64,000 bases of DNA, from contig CAMAPT010000005.1 of the NCBI GenBank assembly GCA_945860225.1, forward strand, positions 62,001-126,000. The letters run 5' to 3'. The stretch is from Chitinophaga pinensis (GTDB lineage: Bacteria > Bacteroidota > Bacteroidia > B-17B0 > Aurantibacillaceae). The first letter of the stretch is position 1. Each line of letters begins with the position of its first letter. The position numbers were made by a program, and so were the translations under genes. The notes under the pieces are model-generated. The model had not been told where the DNA came from. It saw nothing but the letters and a program-made list of their open reading frames with translations, and did not search any database. Below are positions 2,024 to 9,520 of this stretch, in pieces.

Positions 2024-2031
2024 TAATTTAG
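2024..2031 (+). promoter_or_regulatory. Candidate -7 promoter element for the ilv leader
   Basis: TAATTTAG matches the Bacteroidota -7 consensus TAnnTTTG at all but one fixed position. It would start transcription about 14 bases before the leader ATG at 2050. No clear -33 TTG lies at the usual distance, so this is a weak call resting mainly on its position. Confidence 0.3.
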
Positions 2032-2049
2032 TCGCGGAAAAAAAATTAA

Positions 2050-2097
2050 ATGTTAAATAATCAAGTAAATATTGTCGTTTGCATTATCGTCTTATAA
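2050..2097 (+). CDS. ilv operon leader peptide (attenuator peptide)
   Basis: This short frame reads MLNNQVNIVVCIIVL then TAA. Nine of its 15 residues are leucine, valine or isoleucine, including a dense block Ile-Val-Val-Cys-Ile-Ile-Val-Leu just before the stop. It lies 102 bases upstream of ilvE and 31 bases upstream of a GC-rich stem with a T run. Leader peptides of this make-up control ilv and leu operons by ribosome stalling when charged branched-chain tRNAs are scarce. The ATG follows an A-rich stretch with no strong Shine-Dalgarno, as is usual in Bacteroidota. Its role is inferred from composition and placement. Confidence 0.75.
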   Translation: MLNNQVNIVVCIIVL

Positions 2098-2100
2098 AAG

Positions 2101-2153
2101 GGAAGGATAGTGTTATGATAACAAATAGGCCTTCCAATTAGGAAGGCTTTTTT
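2101..2153 (+). promoter_or_regulatory. ilv transcription attenuator: antiterminator and intrinsic terminator
   Basis: The terminator is a perfect 7 bp stem, GCCTTCC (2129-2135) with GGAAGGC (2141-2147), loop AATTA, then six T (2148-2153). Upstream, GGAAGG (2101-2106) can pair perfectly with CCTTCC (2130-2135), the 5' arm of the terminator, so the two structures exclude each other. GGAAGG starts three bases after the leader stop codon. A ribosome finishing the leader would cover it and allow termination. One stalled at the Ile/Val codons (2071-2091) would leave it free and permit read-through into ilvE. A plain terminator for the gene ending at 1980 is the alternative, but it would not explain the leader. 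Confidence 0.75.
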
Positions 2154-2199
2154 ATTTTTACGACAATTAGTACTTTTAAAAAATCAAAATAAGTAACCT

Positions 2200-3069
2200 A
2201 TGTATTACAACGACAACACTGTCATTTTTTTCAATGGCCAATGGCTTAAAGCTCAAGATTTAAAGGTTAGTCCCTATGTTCAAACCCTTCATTATGGAAG
2301 TGGTGTGTTTGAGGGAATTCGTTCTTATGAAACACCCGATGGTACTCGTATATTTAAATCAGAAGAGCATTATAAAAGACTGTTGTATTCTGCTGAAAAA
2401 ATGCATTTGAAAGTGGATTATACAGCAGATGAATTCACCAAATTAACGTATGAGTTATTAAAACAAAATAATTTAGGAAATGCTTATATCCGTCCATTGA
2501 TTTTTGCCGGTGCTAATATGTCGTTAACACCTACCGATGAGGTACATGTTATGTTATGTGCATGGGAGTGGGGAAAATATTTGGGGAGTAAACTTTTAGA
2601 TTTAACGATTTCTTCTTACCAACGTCCGAATCCAAAATCTTGTCACGTAGATGCTAAAGTTACCGGTCATTATGTCAATTCTATTTTAGCTACTACAGAA
2701 GCGAAAAAAAACGGGTTTGACGAAGCGTTGTTATTAGATGCTCAAGGTCATGTAGCCGAAGGTCCGGGTGCTAATTTCTTTTATGAAAAAAACAAGGTGC
2801 TTTATACCCCACCATTAGGAAATATTTTGCCAGGAATTACTCGTGCCACAATCATCGAATTGTGTAAAGAATTAGACATAAAATTAGAAGAAACATACTT
2901 TACCCCGGAAGACGTAAAAGGCGCGGATAGTGCATTTTTTGTTGGCACAGCGGCAGAAGTAGTGGGGATATCTTCTATTGATAGAGTTCCATTTAAATTA
3001 AAGTGGGAAGATTCATTAGGATCTATTCTTCAAGCTAAATACATCAGACGAGTTGCCTTTAATGAATAA
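2200..3069 (+). CDS. ilvE: Branched-chain amino acid aminotransferase
   Basis: This 289-residue protein is a fold-type IV PLP aminotransferase catalysing the last step of isoleucine, valine and leucine synthesis (2-oxo acid plus glutamate). Visible motifs are HYGSGVFEGIR near the start, the PLP lysine Lys153 in DAKVTGHYVNS, EALLLD, and the cofactor phosphate region around NILPGITRATI. The length fits the short bacterial BCAT group. It is the first structural gene after the attenuator and is followed 69 bases later by ilvD on the same strand. The ATG at 2200 sits just ahead of the conserved YNDNTVIFFNG start. A D-amino-acid transaminase of the same fold is possible but unlikely in this operon. 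Confidence 0.95.
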   Translation: MYYNDNTVIFFNGQWLKAQDLKVSPYVQTLHYGSGVFEGIRSYETPDGTRIFKSEEHYKRLLYSAEKMHLKVDYTADEFTKLTYELLKQNNLGNAYIRPLIFAGANMSLTPTDEVHVMLCAWEWGKYLGSKLLDLTISSYQRPNPKSCHVDAKVTGHYVNSILATTEAKKNGFDEALLLDAQGHVAEGPGANFFYEKNKVLYTPPLGNILPGITRATIIELCKELDIKLEETYFTPEDVKGADSAFFVGTAAEVVGISSIDRVPFKLKWEDSLGSILQAKYIRRVAFNE

Positions 3070-3138: not shown

Positions 3139-4812
3139 ATGGAATTAAATCGTTACAGCAAAACAGTAACCCAAGATGAATCTCAGCCCGCTTCTCAAGC
3201 CATGTTATATGGTATTGGTTTAACGGAAGATGATATGAAAAAACCATTAGTTGGTATAGCCTCTACTTGGTATGAGGGAAATACGTGTAATATGCACCTC
3301 AATGGATTATCTAAATTCGTGAAAGAAGGTGTCATTGAAAATGGATTGGTCGGTTTGCAATTTAATACCATTGGTATTAGCGATGGGATTACAAACGGAA
3401 CTGATGGCATGCGTTATTCTTTGGTTTCACGAGAAATTATAGCTGATTCAGTTGAAGCGGTAACAGCGGCTCATTATTATGATGGTTTAATTACCATTGC
3501 AGGATGTGATAAAAATATGCCGGGTGTAGCTATGGCTATGATTCGTCTCAATAGACCTTCGATTATGGTTTATGGAGGAACGATAGCATCGGGTAATTAT
3601 AAAGGAAAAAAATTAAATATAGTTTCTGCTTTTGAGGCATTAGGTGAAAAATATGCGGGTAAAATAAGCGACGAAGATTATAAAGGTGTCATTAAAAATT
3701 CGTGCCCTGGTGCTGGTGCGTGTGGTGGAATGTATACTGCCAATACCATGTCATCTGCTATAGAGGCTTTGGGTTTAAGTTTACCTTATAGTTCATCTAA
3801 TCCTGCTTTAAGTCCTGAAAAAAAACAGGAATGCAAAGATACCGGTAAGTATTTAAAATTATTATTGGAGAAAGATATCAAACCTTCCGATATACTTTCT
3901 AAAAAATCATTTGAAAATGCATTTACTATTGTTGTGGCTTTAGGAGGTTCAACAAACGCCGTTTTGCATCTTTTAGCAATTGCTAAAACAGCTAATATCG
4001 ATTTTACATTAGATGATGTTGCACGTATCAATGAAAAAACGCCCGTTATTGCAGATTTAAAACCTAGTGGTAAATACATGATGGAAGATGTATTTGCGAT
4101 TGGTGGTGTACCTGCCGTTATGAAATTTTTATTAGATAAAGGTTTTTTACATGGTGATTGTTTAACCGTAACTGGTAAAACAATTCGTGAAAATTTGAAT
4201 GAATTACCAGGATTATTAAATGGTCAACAAGTTATATTTTCTCTTGAAAATGCAGTAAAAACGACAGGTCATTTGAGAGTTTTATACGGAAATTTGGCTC
4301 CAGAAGGTTCTGTGGCAAAAATTACAGGTAAAGAAGGCGAAATTTTTACTGGACCAGCCATTGTTTTTGAAAATGAATTTGATTGTATCCGAGGTATTCG
4401 CGAAGGTGAAGTAAAACCAGGGCAAGTAGTTGTTATCAGAAATGAAGGACCGAAAGGTGGCCCGGGTATGCCTGAAATGTTAAAGCCAACTTCGGCATTA
4501 ATTGGTGCAGGTTTAGGAAGCAGTGTGGCATTAATTACAGATGGCCGTTTTTCTGGAGGAACACATGGTTTTGTGGTTGGTCACGTTTGCCCTGAGGCGT
4601 TTGATGGAGGACCAATTGCTTTAGTTCAAAATGGAGATACCATTACGATAGATGCAGTGAACAATAAAATCAATATTCAGCTATCTGATGAAGAATTAAA
4701 TGAAAGAAGAAAAAATTGGGTTCAACCTGAACTGAAAGTGAAATTTGGTGTTTTGTATAAGTATGCTAAACAAGTAAGTTCTGCTAGTAAGGGATGTTTA
4801 ACAGATTTATAG
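3139..4812 (+). CDS. ilvD: Dihydroxy-acid dehydratase
   Basis: The enzyme is 557 residues, the usual length. It dehydrates 2,3-dihydroxy-isovalerate and 2,3-dihydroxy-3-methylvalerate to the 2-oxo acids used by IlvE. Iron-sulfur ligands expected for the family are visible as Cys50 (NTCNMH), Cys123 (AGCDKNMPG) and Cys195 ([14 protein letters not shown]). Near the C-terminus it has [12 protein letters not shown] and the [15 protein letters not shown] active-site segment. Three correctly placed cysteines suggest a [2Fe-2S] type. It lies between ilvE and ilvB; the 120 bases after it hold a degenerate extragenic repeat rather than a terminator. Confidence 0.96.
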
Positions 4813-4817
4813 TTTTC

Positions 4818-4920
4818 AATTGCACTCGAACTGACAAAAACTTGTCACATTGAGCGAAGTCGAAATGTAGATAAGAAAATGATGAATAAACAATAGTTCT
4901 CGACTACGCTCGAACTGACA
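4818..4920. repeat. Degenerate extragenic palindromic repeats between ilvD and ilvB
   Basis: Three related segments lie here. CACTCGAACTGACA (4823-4836) and CTACGCTCGAACTGACA (4904-4920) are direct copies. TGTCACATTGAGCGAAGTCGAA (4843-4864) is an inverted copy of the same unit. The form GTCA-n-TGAGCGAAGTCGAA and its complement is a familiar interspersed intergenic repeat in Bacteroidota genomes. The inverted copies can form an imperfect hairpin in the ilvD-ilvB mRNA. No T run follows, so it does not look like a terminator. Confidence 0.7.
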
Positions 4921-4932
4921 AAAAAGTAAAAC

Positions 4933-6642
4933 ATGAAAAAACACGCTAAGTATAATACAGAAGTAACAGGAGCTGAAGCTTTGATATTAGCTTTATTGGA
5001 TGAACAAGTAACGGATGTGTTTGGTTATCCGGGCGGCGCCATTATGCCTGTTTATGATGCGCTATATGACTATAGTGACCAATTAACTCATTATTTGGTT
5101 CGTCATGAACAGGGCGCTACACATGCAGCTCAAGGATACTCGAGAGTTTCCGGAAAAACGGGTGTTGTATTTGCTACTTCAGGACCAGGAGCTACTAATT
5201 TGATAACTGGAATTGCCGACGCGCAGATAGACTCGACGCCGATGGTTTGTATTACCGGACAAGTGGCTTCTCACTTATTAGGAACCGATGCTTTTCAAGA
5301 AACGGATGTCTTAGGCATTTCTATGCCGGTTACCAAATGGAATATTCAGGTTACAAAAGCTGAAGATATTGCCCCGGCTGTAGCTAAAGCATTTTTTATC
5401 GCAGCGTCTGGTCGTCCGGGCCCTGTTTTGGTAGATATTACGAAAGATGCACAGTTTGGAAAGACGATTTATAAATATGAAAAATGTGAAAGTGTTCGAA
5501 GTTATTTCCCTAGTCCGAAAGTAAATGAAACGGATGTAGAAAAAGCGGCAGAATTAATTAATAATGCTAAACGTCCTTATATTTTGTGTGGACATGGTGT
5601 ATTATTGTCAGGAGCTGAAAAAGCTTTACTCGAATTGGCTGAAAAAGGCGATATTCCAGTTGCTTCAACGTTATTAGGATTAGGAGCATTTCCTCCGCAG
5701 CATCCATTGTATGTTGGCTATTTAGGTATGCATGGTAATTATGGCCCAAATTTGTTGACGAATGAATGTGATTTGTTAATTGCTATTGGGATGCGTTTTG
5801 ATGACCGTGTTACAGGAAACGTTAGTAAATATGCAAAACAAGCCAAGGTCGTACATTTTGAAATTGACCCATCTGAAATTAATAAAATTATACCAGCCGA
5901 TGTCGCAGTATTAGGCGATGCTAAAGAATCTTTAGGGTTATTGTTGCCAAAAATAAAAGCAACGAAGCATACAGATTGGTTAAAACGTTTTGAAGATTGT
6001 AATGATATTGAATTTGAAAAAGTAATCAAACATGCCGTTGATCCGGATTCTAAGCAACTTCGTATGGCTGAGGTGATTGATAAATTTCACAAAATCAGTG
6101 AGGGTAATGCCATTGTTGCTACAGATGTTGGTCAACACCAAATGATTACATCGAGGTATTATAAGTTTAATAAACCGAATTTTTGTGTGACATCAGGAGG
6201 CTTGGGAACAATGGGTTTTGGATTACCCGCAGCCATTGGAGCTAAAGTAGCATTGCCAAACACAGAGGTGATTACCGTATTAGGTGATGGTGGATTTCAG
6301 ATGACCATACAAGAGCTTGGTACCATTATGCAAAGTAATATTGCCGTAAAAATTTTGGTACTTAATAATAACTTTTTAGGGATGGTAAGACAATGGCAAC
6401 AATTATTTTTTGATCGTCGTTATTCTTTTACAGAAATGAAAAACCCCGATTTCATAACCATTGCTAAAGGGTATGGAATAAAAGGAAAAAAAGTGACCGA
6501 GAGAAAAGATTTAAATGAGGCTCTGAAAGAAATGTATGAAGCAAAAGAAGCCTACTTATTAGAGGTCGTTGTGGAAAATGAAGAAAATGTATTCCCAATG
6601 GTACCTACGGGCGCTAGTGTAGCAGAAATACGATTGGAATAA
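4933..6642 (+). CDS. ilvB: Acetolactate synthase large (catalytic) subunit
   Basis: This 569-residue ThDP-dependent enzyme condenses pyruvate with pyruvate or 2-oxobutyrate, the committed step of valine and isoleucine synthesis. It has the PYR domain with catalytic Glu59 (RHEQGATHAAQGYSR), a central FAD/DHS-like domain, and the PP domain with the ThDP/metal motif GDGGFQ at 451-456 followed by VLNNNFLGMVRQWQQLFF. That segment, with the adjacent ilvN regulatory subunit gene 21-39 bases downstream, argues for a feedback-regulated anabolic synthase rather than a catabolic one. The ATG at 4933 leaves a short lead before GAEALILALLD. Confidence 0.96.
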   Translation: MKKHAKYNTEVTGAEALILALLDEQVTDVFGYPGGAIMPVYDALYDYSDQLTHYLVRHEQGATHAAQGYSRVSGKTGVVFATSGPGATNLITGIADAQIDSTPMVCITGQVASHLLGTDAFQETDVLGISMPVTKWNIQVTKAEDIAPAVAKAFFIAASGRPGPVLVDITKDAQFGKTIYKYEKCESVRSYFPSPKVNETDVEKAAELINNAKRPYILCGHGVLLSGAEKALLELAEKGDIPVASTLLGLGAFPPQHPLYVGYLGMHGNYGPNLLTNECDLLIAIGMRFDDRVTGNVSKYAKQAKVVHFEIDPSEINKIIPADVAVLGDAKESLGLLLPKIKATKHTDWLKRFEDCNDIEFEKVIKHAVDPDSKQLRMAEVIDKFHKISEGNAIVATDVGQHQMITSRYYKFNKPNFCVTSGGLGTMGFGLPAAIGAKVALPNTEVITVLGDGGFQMTIQELGTIMQSNIAVKILVLNNNFLGMVRQWQQLFFDRRYSFTEMKNPDFITIAKGYGIKGKKVTERKDLNEALKEMYEAKEAYLLEVVVENEENVFPMVPTGASVAEIRLE

Positions 6643-6681
6643 ATAAGATAATTTTACGGAACCTTGAATAAAAAAGACGAA

Positions 6682-7236
6682 ATGAATACGACATACACCA
6701 TATCTATATTTACGGAAGATATTATAGGATTACTATCTAGGGTAACTATTATTTTTACTCGCCGACATGTTAATATTGAAAGTATTACAGCCAGTGAAAG
6801 TGAATTAAAAGGAGTTTACAGATACACCATTGTGGTAACTGTTTCGGAAGAACAGGTAAAAAAGTTAGTTAAACAGATAGAAAAACAAGTAGAGGTTTTA
6901 AAAGCATTTTATCATGTTAATTCTGAAATTATTAGTCGTGAAATTGCTTTATATAAATTATCTGCTGAAGCTTTCAAAGAAAACGAATCATTCATGAACA
7001 TTATCAATGCTAATTATGCCAAAATTTTAAGCATAGCATCCGATTACATTGTGGTTGAAAAAACAGGTGATGAACGTGAAATTAAGCAATTGTTCAATGA
7101 TTTGGAAAAGTTTGGTATTTTGGAATTTGTACGAAGTGGACGAGTATGCATTACTAAGCCTCTTAAAACCCTAAATGCTTTTTTAATGGAATTAGAAAAT
7201 AACAGTAATACAACAATTAAACATTTTAATAAATAA
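6682..7236 (+). CDS. ilvN: Acetolactate synthase small (regulatory) subunit
   Basis: The product is 184 residues from the ATG at 6682. A TTG at 6664 would add six residues (MNKKDE), but the conserved fold begins at YTISIFTEDIIGLLSRVTIIF, so the ATG is preferred. Residues about 5-80 form an ACT domain that binds the feedback effector; the rest is the C-terminal ALS_ss_C-type domain (motif LSAEAFKENESFMNI, then DYIVVEKTGDEREI). It associates with IlvB to raise activity and give valine sensitivity. The ilvC start lies five bases after the stop, so translation is probably coupled. Confidence 0.93.
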   Translation: MNTTYTISIFTEDIIGLLSRVTIIFTRRHVNIESITASESELKGVYRYTIVVTVSEEQVKKLVKQIEKQVEVLKAFYHVNSEIISREIALYKLSAEAFKENESFMNIINANYAKILSIASDYIVVEKTGDEREIKQLFNDLEKFGILEFVRSGRVCITKPLKTLNAFLMELENNSNTTIKHFNK

Positions 7237-7241
7237 AAACT

Positions 7242-8279
7242 ATGGCACAAATTAATTTTGGTGGCGTTTTAGAAAACGTCGTAACACGCGAAGAATTTAC
7301 ATTAGATAAATCACGCGAAGTCTTGAAAAGTGAAACTGTAGCAGTAATCGGATACGGTGTTCAAGGTCCGGGCCAATCTTTAAATTTAAAAGATAATGGT
7401 ATTAACGTGATAGTTGGTCAACGTAAAGGTGGCAAAAGTTGGGATAAGGCCGTTGCCGACGGATGGGTTGAAGGAGTTAATTTATTCGAGATAGAAGAAG
7501 CATGTCGTCGCGCCACTATCATACAATATTTATTGTCAGATGCTGGGCAAATTGCTTCTTGGCCAGTTATTAAACCATACTTAACAACAGGAAAGGCATT
7601 ATATTTTTCTCACGGATTCGGAATTACTTTCCATGAAAAAACCGGTATTGTTCCTCCAACAGATGTAGATGTTATTTTGGTAGCACCAAAAGGTTCAGGA
7701 ACTTCATTGCGTCGTTTATTTGTTGAAGGTAAAGGTTTAAATTCTAGTTATGCCATTTATCAGGATGCAACAGGTAAGGCTAAAGATAGAGCATTAGCCT
7801 TAGGAATTGGTGTAGGCTCTGGTTATTTATTCGAAACTGATTTTAAGAAAGAAGTATATTCTGATTTAACTGGCGAGCGTGGTATATTAATGGGTGCATT
7901 AGCTGGATTGTTTGAAGCGCAATACTATGTTTTAAGAGAAAAAGGACATTCTCCTTCCGAAGCTTTTAATGAAACAGTTGAAGAATTAACACAAAGTTTA
8001 ATGCCGTTGGTAGCAGAAAATGGCATGGATTGGATGTTTGCAAATACGTCTGTAACCGCTCAACGTGGTGCGTTGGATTGGAAAGGTAAATTTAGAGATG
8101 CTGCAGCTCCTGTTTTTAAAGAGTTATATGAAAGTGTTGCTAGTGGTAAAGAAGCAGAAAGAGTTATTGCAGAAGGAAGTAAATCAGATTACAGAGCAAA
8201 ATTAGAACTAGAATTAAAAGAAATAAGAGAATCTGAATTATGGCAAGCTGGTGCTGCCGTAAGAAAACTTAGACCATAA
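7242..8279 (+). CDS. ilvC: Ketol-acid reductoisomerase, fungal-like type
   Basis: This 345-residue NADPH-dependent enzyme isomerises and reduces acetolactate or acetohydroxybutyrate. The nucleotide-binding loop is VIGYGVQGPGQ (36-46) with GQRKGG (59-64). SHGFG (123-127) lies by the active site, and Asp208 and Glu212 (SDLTGERGILMG) are the expected Mg ligands, with NETVEELTQSL further on. The wording (GQSLNLKDNG, SWDKAVADGW, ALYFSHGF, GHSPSEAFNETVEE, ending VRKLRP) is closer to what I recall of fungal mitochondrial Ilv5 than to the common bacterial form GYGSQGHAHALNLRDSG. The stop overlaps the ilvA start by one base (TAATG). Confidence 0.95.
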   Translation: MAQINFGGVLENVVTREEFTLDKSREVLKSETVAVIGYGVQGPGQSLNLKDNGINVIVGQRKGGKSWDKAVADGWVEGVNLFEIEEACRRATIIQYLLSDAGQIASWPVIKPYLTTGKALYFSHGFGITFHEKTGIVPPTDVDVILVAPKGSGTSLRRLFVEGKGLNSSYAIYQDATGKAKDRALALGIGVGSGYLFETDFKKEVYSDLTGERGILMGALAGLFEAQYYVLREKGHSPSEAFNETVEELTQSLMPLVAENGMDWMFANTSVTAQRGALDWKGKFRDAAAPVFKELYESVASGKEAERVIAEGSKSDYRAKLELELKEIRESELWQAGAAVRKLRP

Positions 8280-9520
8280 TGATAACTGTCGAACACATCA
8301 ACAAAGCCGCTCAAAATTTAGAAGGTGTTGCCTCTCATACACCTCTACAATACAATTTTCAATTGAGTGAAGAATTTGGTTGCAATGTTTATTTAAAACG
8401 CGAAGATTTACAAGTTGTACGCTCCTATAAAATTAGAGGAGCGTACAATAAAATCAGCTCCTTGAATGATATTGAAAAAAATGCCGGAGTTGTTTGTGCC
8501 AGTGCGGGAAATCATGCCCAGGGAGTTGCGTATTCGTGTCGTAAATTGAATATTAAAGGCACTATATTTATGCCAGCAACAACTCCCTCTCAAAAAATAT
8601 CTCAAGTAAAATTGTTTGGGAAAGAGTTTGTTGAAGTTGTTTTGGTTGGTGATACTTTTGATGATGCTTATAAGGCAGCTCTTGAGTTTTGTAATTCAAA
8701 GGGCGCCTCATTTGTGCATCCTTTTGATGACGAAAAAGTGATAGAAGGACAAGGAACAGTGGCAAAGGAAATTTTGGATGATGCAGATTTTGATATTGAT
8801 TTTTTGTTGGTGCCTATTGGTGGTGGTGGATTAGCAGCGGGTTGCGTGAGTTATTTTTCAGAAAAATACCCTCATACCAAAATTATAGGTGTAGAGCCTG
8901 AAGGTGCTCCTTCGATGAAAACTTCTATTCAAAATGGCGTAAATACAGAGCTTAAAGAAATTGACAAGTTTGTTGATGGGGCCGCTGTCAAAAAAGTAGG
9001 AGATAAGACTTTTGACATCTGTAGAAAATACCTTCACCAAATCATTTTGGTACCAGAAGGAAAAGTTTGCACAACTATTTTAAATCTTTATAATCAGCAG
9101 GCAATAGTTGTTGAACCTGCGGGAGCATTAACCATTGCCTCATTAAATTATTTAAAAGATCAGTTGGTAGGTAAGAATGTTGTGTGCGTAGTTAGTGGTA
9201 GTAATAACGACATCATGCGAACAGAGGAAATAAGGGAACGCTCTTTATTATTTGAAGGGTTAAAACATTTCTTTATTATTAGTTTCCCTCAGCGTGCCGG
9301 GGCTTTAAAAGAGTTTGTAGGAAATGTATTGGGACCTAACGATGACATTGTTCATTTTGAATATATGAAAAAAAATAATCGTGAAAACGGTCCAGCTTTA
9401 GTTGGTTTGGAGATTAAAGATCCCAAAGATTTAGAATTATTGAAAGGCAGGTTGTTGACATCAGGCTTTAAGTTTGAATACTTAAATAAAAATGATAATT
9501 TATTACAGTTCTTGATGTAA
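8279..9520 (+). CDS. ilvA: Threonine ammonia-lyase (biosynthetic threonine dehydratase)
   Basis: The enzyme is 413 residues and converts threonine to 2-oxobutyrate, feeding isoleucine synthesis. The catalytic domain has the PLP lysine Lys51 in RSYKIRGAYNKI, SAGNHAQGVAYS, the phosphate loop GGGGLAAG (181-188) and SGSNND. From about 325 there is one ACT-like regulatory domain (FFIISFPQRAGALKEF), the arrangement of the shorter isoleucine-sensitive form. Translation is coupled to ilvC by the TAATG overlap. A perfect 12 bp inverted repeat covers the codons around Lys51. It is the last gene of the operon and ends 30 bases from a convergent gene; no clear terminator was seen there. Confidence 0.94.
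   Translation: MITVEHINKAAQNLEGVASHTPLQYNFQLSEEFGCNVYLKREDLQVVRSYKIRGAYNKISSLNDIEKNAGVVCASAGNHAQGVAYSCRKLNIKGTIFMPATTPSQKISQVKLFGKEFVEVVLVGDTFDDAYKAALEFCNSKGASFVHPFDDEKVIEGQGTVAKEILDDADFDIDFLLVPIGGGGLAAGCVSYFSEKYPHTKIIGVEPEGAPSMKTSIQNGVNTELKEIDKFVDGAAVKKVGDKTFDICRKYLHQIILVPEGKVCTTILNLYNQQAIVVEPAGALTIASLNYLKDQLVGKNVVCVVSGSNNDIMRTEEIRERSLLFEGLKHFFIISFPQRAGALKEFVGNVLGPNDDIVHFEYMKKNNRENGPALVGLEIKDPKDLELLKGRLLTSGFKFEYLNKNDNLLQFLM
8415..8448 (+). repeat. 12 bp perfect inverted repeat inside ilvA
   Basis: TTGTACGCTCCT (8415-8426) and AGGAGCGTACAA (8437-8448) are exact complements separated by the ten-base loop ATAAAATTAG. The hairpin covers the codons around the PLP lysine. Part of the symmetry follows from the amino-acid sequence, but twelve perfect pairs in an AT-rich gene is more than expected by chance. 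Confidence 0.8.

Follow-up and report, generated by a model that had tools for sequence, protein, structure and literature searches.

A putative ribosome-mediated attenuator upstream of the ilvE-D-B-N-C-A operon in Bacteroidota, with comparative support across the phylum

The closest described systems are the attenuators of the enterobacterial ilvGMEDA, ilvBN (ivbL) and leuABCD operons of Escherichia coli and Salmonella, the features of which are used here for comparison. In these, a short leader rich in the amino acids produced by the operon is combined with helices 1:2, 2:3 and 3:4, and a terminator lies 5' of the first gene. An abstract by Vitreschak et al. from 2004 is said to mention candidate attenuators in Bacteroidetes/Chlorobi. 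Upstream frames controlling branched-chain genes, namely ilvBNC attenuators or uORFs, are likewise reported for Actinobacteria, another phylum with another operon (PMC1262725, PMC10272879), and in 2010 the authors of a Firmicutes case were aware of earlier examples from Proteobacteria and Actinobacteria only (PMC2965389). Within the phylum studied here, a work on Flavobacterium psychrophilum gives strong clues for the same proposed mechanism, leader-peptide attenuation upstream of amino-acid operons, and its main text presents no ilv case, covariation or distribution (PMC9723704). The preliminary description of the present locus knew of no Bacteroidota ilv case; this stands in so far as a literature search, mostly outside subscription journals, turned up no publication devoted to attenuation of ilv genes in this phylum, and has to be qualified by the earlier suggestion of attenuation before other amino-acid operons in F. 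psychrophilum.

The window, i.e., the whole 64 kb stretch of DNA that was analysed, contains a complete candidate attenuator at positions 2050–2156, the only one found before ilvE in the window (Table 1). The leader MLNNQVNIVVCIIVL, the translation of which is predicted, has Ile, Val or Leu at 9 of its 15 residues and is thus rich in codons for the amino acids that the operon produces. Between it and the first structural gene lies an intrinsic terminator with arms at 2129–2135 and 2141–2147, a loop of 5 nt and a T6 run at 2148–2153. It had been claimed that a 15-codon frame with nine Ile/Val/Leu residues, the GGAAGG and CCTTCC motifs, a perfect stem at 2129–2147 and a six-T run occur here, and all were found at the positions given; the downstream gene assignments also agree with NCBIfam, all on the + strand. 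A detector seeking an I/L/V-rich ATG frame, a terminator 5–60 nt beyond it and complementarity of arm 2 to arm 3 returned one site on both strands of the 64 kb, the ilv leader, and no site when applied to 960 kb of random sequence generated by a Markov-1 model from the dinucleotide frequencies of the window. Compared to the enterobacterial attenuators, the locus belongs to another phylum, precedes a different gene order and shares no sequence with them; it is predicted to have a very short, A-rich 5' UTR with no evident Shine-Dalgarno sequence, and its control codons are those of Ile and Val in a genus with no full match to leuA.

Table 1. Features of the predicted attenuator and the operon (positions in the window)
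Feature	Position	Strand	Basis or remark
Predicted -7 promoter box TAATTTAG	2024–2031	+	5/6 against the Bacteroidota consensus TAnnTTTG; predicted transcript start a few nt further 3'
Leader peptide frame MLNNQVNIVVCIIVL	2050–2097	+	ATG at 2050, TAA at 2095–2097; Ile/Val core kept in 45/51 relatives
Ile/Val control codons	2065–2091	+	Inside leader frame
Helix 1:2 (protector/pause hairpin)	2072–2121	+	Folding, synonymous recoding, cognate-pairing permutation
Arm 2, GGAAGG (antiterminator 5' arm)	2101–2106	+	Directly past leader stop
Helix 2:3 (antiterminator), GGAAGG/CCTTCC around small hairpin TGTTATGATAACA	2101–2135	+	Folding; covariation by permutation
Arm 3, CCTTCC	2130–2135	+	Read from sequence
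Helix 3:4 (intrinsic terminator), GCCTTCC-AATTA-GGAAGGC + T6	2129–2153	+	Sequence and folding
ilvE, branched-chain aminotransferase, first operon gene	2200–3069	+	TIGR01122 above cut-off
Operon after ilvE	3139–9520	+	
ilvD	3139–4812	+	NCBIfam
ilvB (large subunit)	4933–6642	+	NCBIfam
ilvN (small subunit)	about 6682–7236	+	NCBIfam
ilvC	7242–8279	+	NCBIfam
ilvA	8279–9520	+	NCBIfam

Folding of the leader region gave three helices. Helix 1:2, predicted at -15.2 kcal/mol in the fold of 2038–2126 (z -3.83, equalled by 0 of 200 shuffles), pairs the Ile/Val codons themselves, as arm 1, with bases past the leader stop; its overlap with the control codons was found in the window and in relatives and is weak in some members of the genus. 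Helix 2:3 was predicted at -11.2 kcal/mol (z -2.69) and helix 3:4 at -14.4 kcal/mol (z -3.98, fold of 2123–2156). That CCTTCC can pair with either arm had been proposed beforehand, and both of the latter helices do fold and exclude one another. With helix 1:2 included, all three helices are mutually exclusive, so the region has the full four-arm architecture. The earlier scheme, with its 2:3 and 3:4 switch, is retained in that respect; it was incomplete in overlooking helix 1:2, with which an untranslated leader should also terminate, and in overlooking the -7 box.

Since a MAFFT alignment of the genus moves the terminator arm of the window by one column, permutations of cognate pairing were used in place of base-pair counts. 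Cognate arms 2 and 3 pair with a mean of -13.4 kcal/mol among 54 attenuators, against -8.8 (sd 0.37) when permuted, and with -14.3 against -9.1 kcal/mol (sd 0.65) among 20 representative loci, where none of 100,000 permutations was as good; examples of such pairs are GGAAGG/CCTTCC, GAAAGG/CCTTTC and GTTGATACAG/CTGTGTCAAT. The antiterminator is in this way supported by covariation as well as being exclusive with the terminator. For arms 1 and 2 the cognate value was reached by 0 of 20,000 permutations (54 attenuators) and by 2 of 20,000 (representatives). When leaders were compared to synonymous recodings drawn from ilvE codon usage, 26 of 54 folded better at p 0.05; the combined p was 6e-10 for 21 representatives and, with recoding from pooled leader codon usage, 4e-9 (9 of 21 folding better), all of these p values being inflated by the relatedness of the loci. 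The leader in the window gave p 0.033 with ilvE usage, and its helix 1:2 was not significant with leader usage (p 0.30), which counts against it.

Taken with the comparative data given below, these features make it very probable that a classical ribosome-mediated transcription attenuator controls ilvE-D-B-N-C-A according to the charging of tRNA-Ile and tRNA-Val. In the proposed mechanism, RNA polymerase would start a few bases 5' of the leader ATG. With ample Ile and Val, a ribosome at the stop (2095–2097) would cover arm 2 (2101–2106), leaving 3:4 (2129–2153) to terminate transcription. With either amino acid scarce, the ribosome would stall at 2065–2089 and keep helix 1:2 open, so that arms 2 and 3 could form the 2:3 antiterminator and polymerase could read into ilvE. 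If the leader were left untranslated, helix 1:2 would sequester arm 2 and the terminator would form.

To model this scheme, a ribosome footprint was masked at each codon in turn and the nascent RNA was folded as far as 2140. With the ribosome at codons 2065–2086 (up to 2089 if the footprint was shorter), the probability of 2:3 was 0.9–1.0; it was near 0 for a ribosome at the stop or on the sense codon preceding it, and 0–0.12 for one on the initial codons, a position in which 1:2 forms. Across the 54 attenuators, I/L/V codons are enriched at permissive positions (455 of 892) relative to non-permissive positions (29 of 160; p 2e-15). In the window, the model has arm 2 covered when the ribosome sits at the stop and free when it sits at the control codons, and in 38 of 54 attenuators the stop is closed while three or more I/L/V codons are permissive. 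The modelling also gave results against the attenuator reading: 2:3 stays open with the ribosome at the stop in 16 of 54 attenuators, with no ribosome the model gives 2:3 a probability of 0.31, and in the full-length equilibrium 3:4 outcompetes 2:3, so antitermination must be kinetic, as is assumed for classical attenuators.

A scan for IlvE yielded 60 loci, of which 51 relatives had usable upstream DNA. In a test set beforehand on whether the frame is conserved along with the terminator, both were present together in 45 of these 51, from many Bacteroidota clades, as an ATG-started Ile/Val-rich frame ending shortly 5' of a terminator. Six relatives were not called. In L056 the unit is evident and begins with TTG; in L061 what seems to be the end of a terminator lies at the limit of the sequence analysed; and in L059, L065 and L066 an upstream coding sequence (leuB by inspection) adjoins ilvE, which is therefore internal to an operon there. 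In the close relative L051, no leader was found in the 181 nt of upstream sequence covered, which counts against the attenuator reading. Within the genus, the covariance model R1 matched, with E values of about 1e-12 or better, 9 of 9 genomes that have the orthologous ilvE; of the 11 genomes without this ilvE, it matched 0 below 7e-4. Upstream of ilvD, 21 forward matches were found in 60 loci from the phylum and none in their reverse complements; at least five further units there (L166, L169, L171, L172, L197) are visible by eye and went undetected by the detector. The ribosome-mediated reading put forward in the preliminary description was thus supported in all comparative tests run, with stalling and read-through as its predicted steps.

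Several other arrangements were observed. Upstream of ilvD in some other members of the phylum, candidate units of a terminator and a longer, less Ile-rich leader occur at L105:1263–1424, L108:1240–1437 and L122:1185–1421. An ilvE resembling those of Bacteroidota (54% identical), along with a corresponding Ile/Val attenuator, occurs in a MAG labelled as Gammaproteobacteria (L085, JAJRQG010000100.1), which represents a misbinned contig or gene transfer. Pairs of attenuators in tandem, both members having an Ile/Val leader and a terminator of their own, precede ilvE in L048, L050, L052, L053, L089, L070, L071, L081–L084 and L086, and tandem attenuators also occur in G105, G127 and G123 (L178, L187, L189). 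Such tandem gates could provide steeper or two-signal control. A tandem arrangement as such is not new, having been described with two short frames for Salmonella mgtCBR (PMC3641672).

With few exceptions, the relatives checked have the TAnnTTTG box 4–21 nt 5' of their leader ATG (40 nt in L058), so the transcript is predicted to start before the leader, and thus upstream of 2100 as the attenuation reading demands. The box scores 6/6 in most relatives and 5/6 in the window, the latter counting against. By this prediction, which rests on a consensus box, the transcript would begin very near the leader start with a very short 5' UTR. A further motif, CAGACTTACTAAA, lies upstream of the -7 box of ilv leaders of relatives at L040:3782, L041:3781, L042:143, L043:2757, L045:2002, L048:3679, L050:3681 and L089:3662; it also precedes a few other genes of the genus, is missing at the window promoter and is possibly the binding site of a regulator. 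In loci of the Cyclobacteriaceae type (L067–L069, L072, L078, L087, L091), partly palindromic CTAACnnnCGTTnGTTA-like sequences resembling TetR-type operators occur 5' of the leader and a second time directly 5' of ilvE.

The leader residues follow the products of the operon. No full match to leuA was found in the genus, the same model detecting leuA in 14 of 14 control genomes, so the operon makes Ile and Val only. The median Leu share of leaders is 0.60 for loci with a same-strand leuA no more than 13.5 kb downstream, 0.12 for those with leuA elsewhere and 0.0 for those without leuA (Mann-Whitney p 2e-5 for Leu share against near-downstream leuA, relatedness left in). Of the Val codons in the leaders of the 54 attenuators, 53% are GTC, most often within GTCATTATT, against 7% in ilvE. 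Helix 1:2 accounts for part of this excess, and the choice of a scarce codon may account for the remainder; scarce-codon choice only could be proposed for the GTC/ATT bias, yet recoding with leader usage leaves a structural signal. About half of the genus (among G000–G019) is without this ilvE, hisG and leuA, sought as possible sites of sister attenuators, are both absent from the genome of the window, and members of the genus appear to differ in amino-acid auxotrophy.

Three other explanations of the locus were weighed. The hairpin might simply terminate the upstream gene, with the short frame arising by chance: a same-strand gene for a T9SS secreted protein ends at 1980, about 150–170 nt before the terminator, and short Ile-rich frames are common in AT-rich DNA. 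This is very improbable, as the leader-terminator unit travels with ilvE while the sequence upstream of it varies, a promoter box sits between the upstream gene and the leader, the arms covary, and the detector was blank on the random sequence and on reverse complements. An effect of the leader mainly on ilvE translation, through reinitiation or sequestration, is given just as little credence. In several phyla, Bacteroidetes among them, a leader peptide lying a short distance away can increase translation (PMC4833913), but here a full intrinsic terminator with its T-run is conserved, and the distance from leader stop to ilvE (102 nt in the window and >200 nt in several relatives) is too long and too variable for either route.

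A ribosome-independent RNA switch that binds a small molecule or protein, with the frame incidental, is only marginally less improbable. It would fit nucleotide conservation above the needs of the peptide (the GTC excess, 53% against 7%) and leaders structured past coding needs; helix 1:2, however, accounts for the extra structure, the frame and its Ile/Val identity are kept among clades with widely different RNA sequence, and the leader amino acids track operon content. Rfam gave no amino-acid leader family (Phe_leader, Thr_leader or others) at the gathering threshold and no curated T-box or riboswitch match. The best sub-threshold match was Phe_leader (RF01859) with 28.5 bits over 2062–2156 against a gathering score of 55; a shared leader-plus-terminator shape probably explains it, as the amino acid and operon differ.

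The attenuation mechanism itself is classical. Judging from sequence comparison, the present analysis extends it by phylum-wide support, by the prediction of a very short 5' UTR and by the occurrence of tandem copies in several clades. On the comparative sequence evidence, the attenuator is conserved in much of a phylum in which such regulation has hardly been described. It offers a ready-made Ile/Val sensor, and its covariance model can annotate a regulator absent from Rfam. Bacteroidota have their own promoter type and make little use of Shine-Dalgarno sequences. A broader proposal, which we consider evenly poised between true and false, is that they control Ile/Val synthesis by an ancestral attenuator on a nearly leaderless, Shine-Dalgarno-free transcript, often as a tandem two-step gate. 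As attenuation needs a ribosome that keeps pace with RNA polymerase, a conserved attenuator is genetic evidence for transcription-translation coupling in Bacteroidota and, if the broader proposal holds, this coupling would be tight from the first codons in this phylum.
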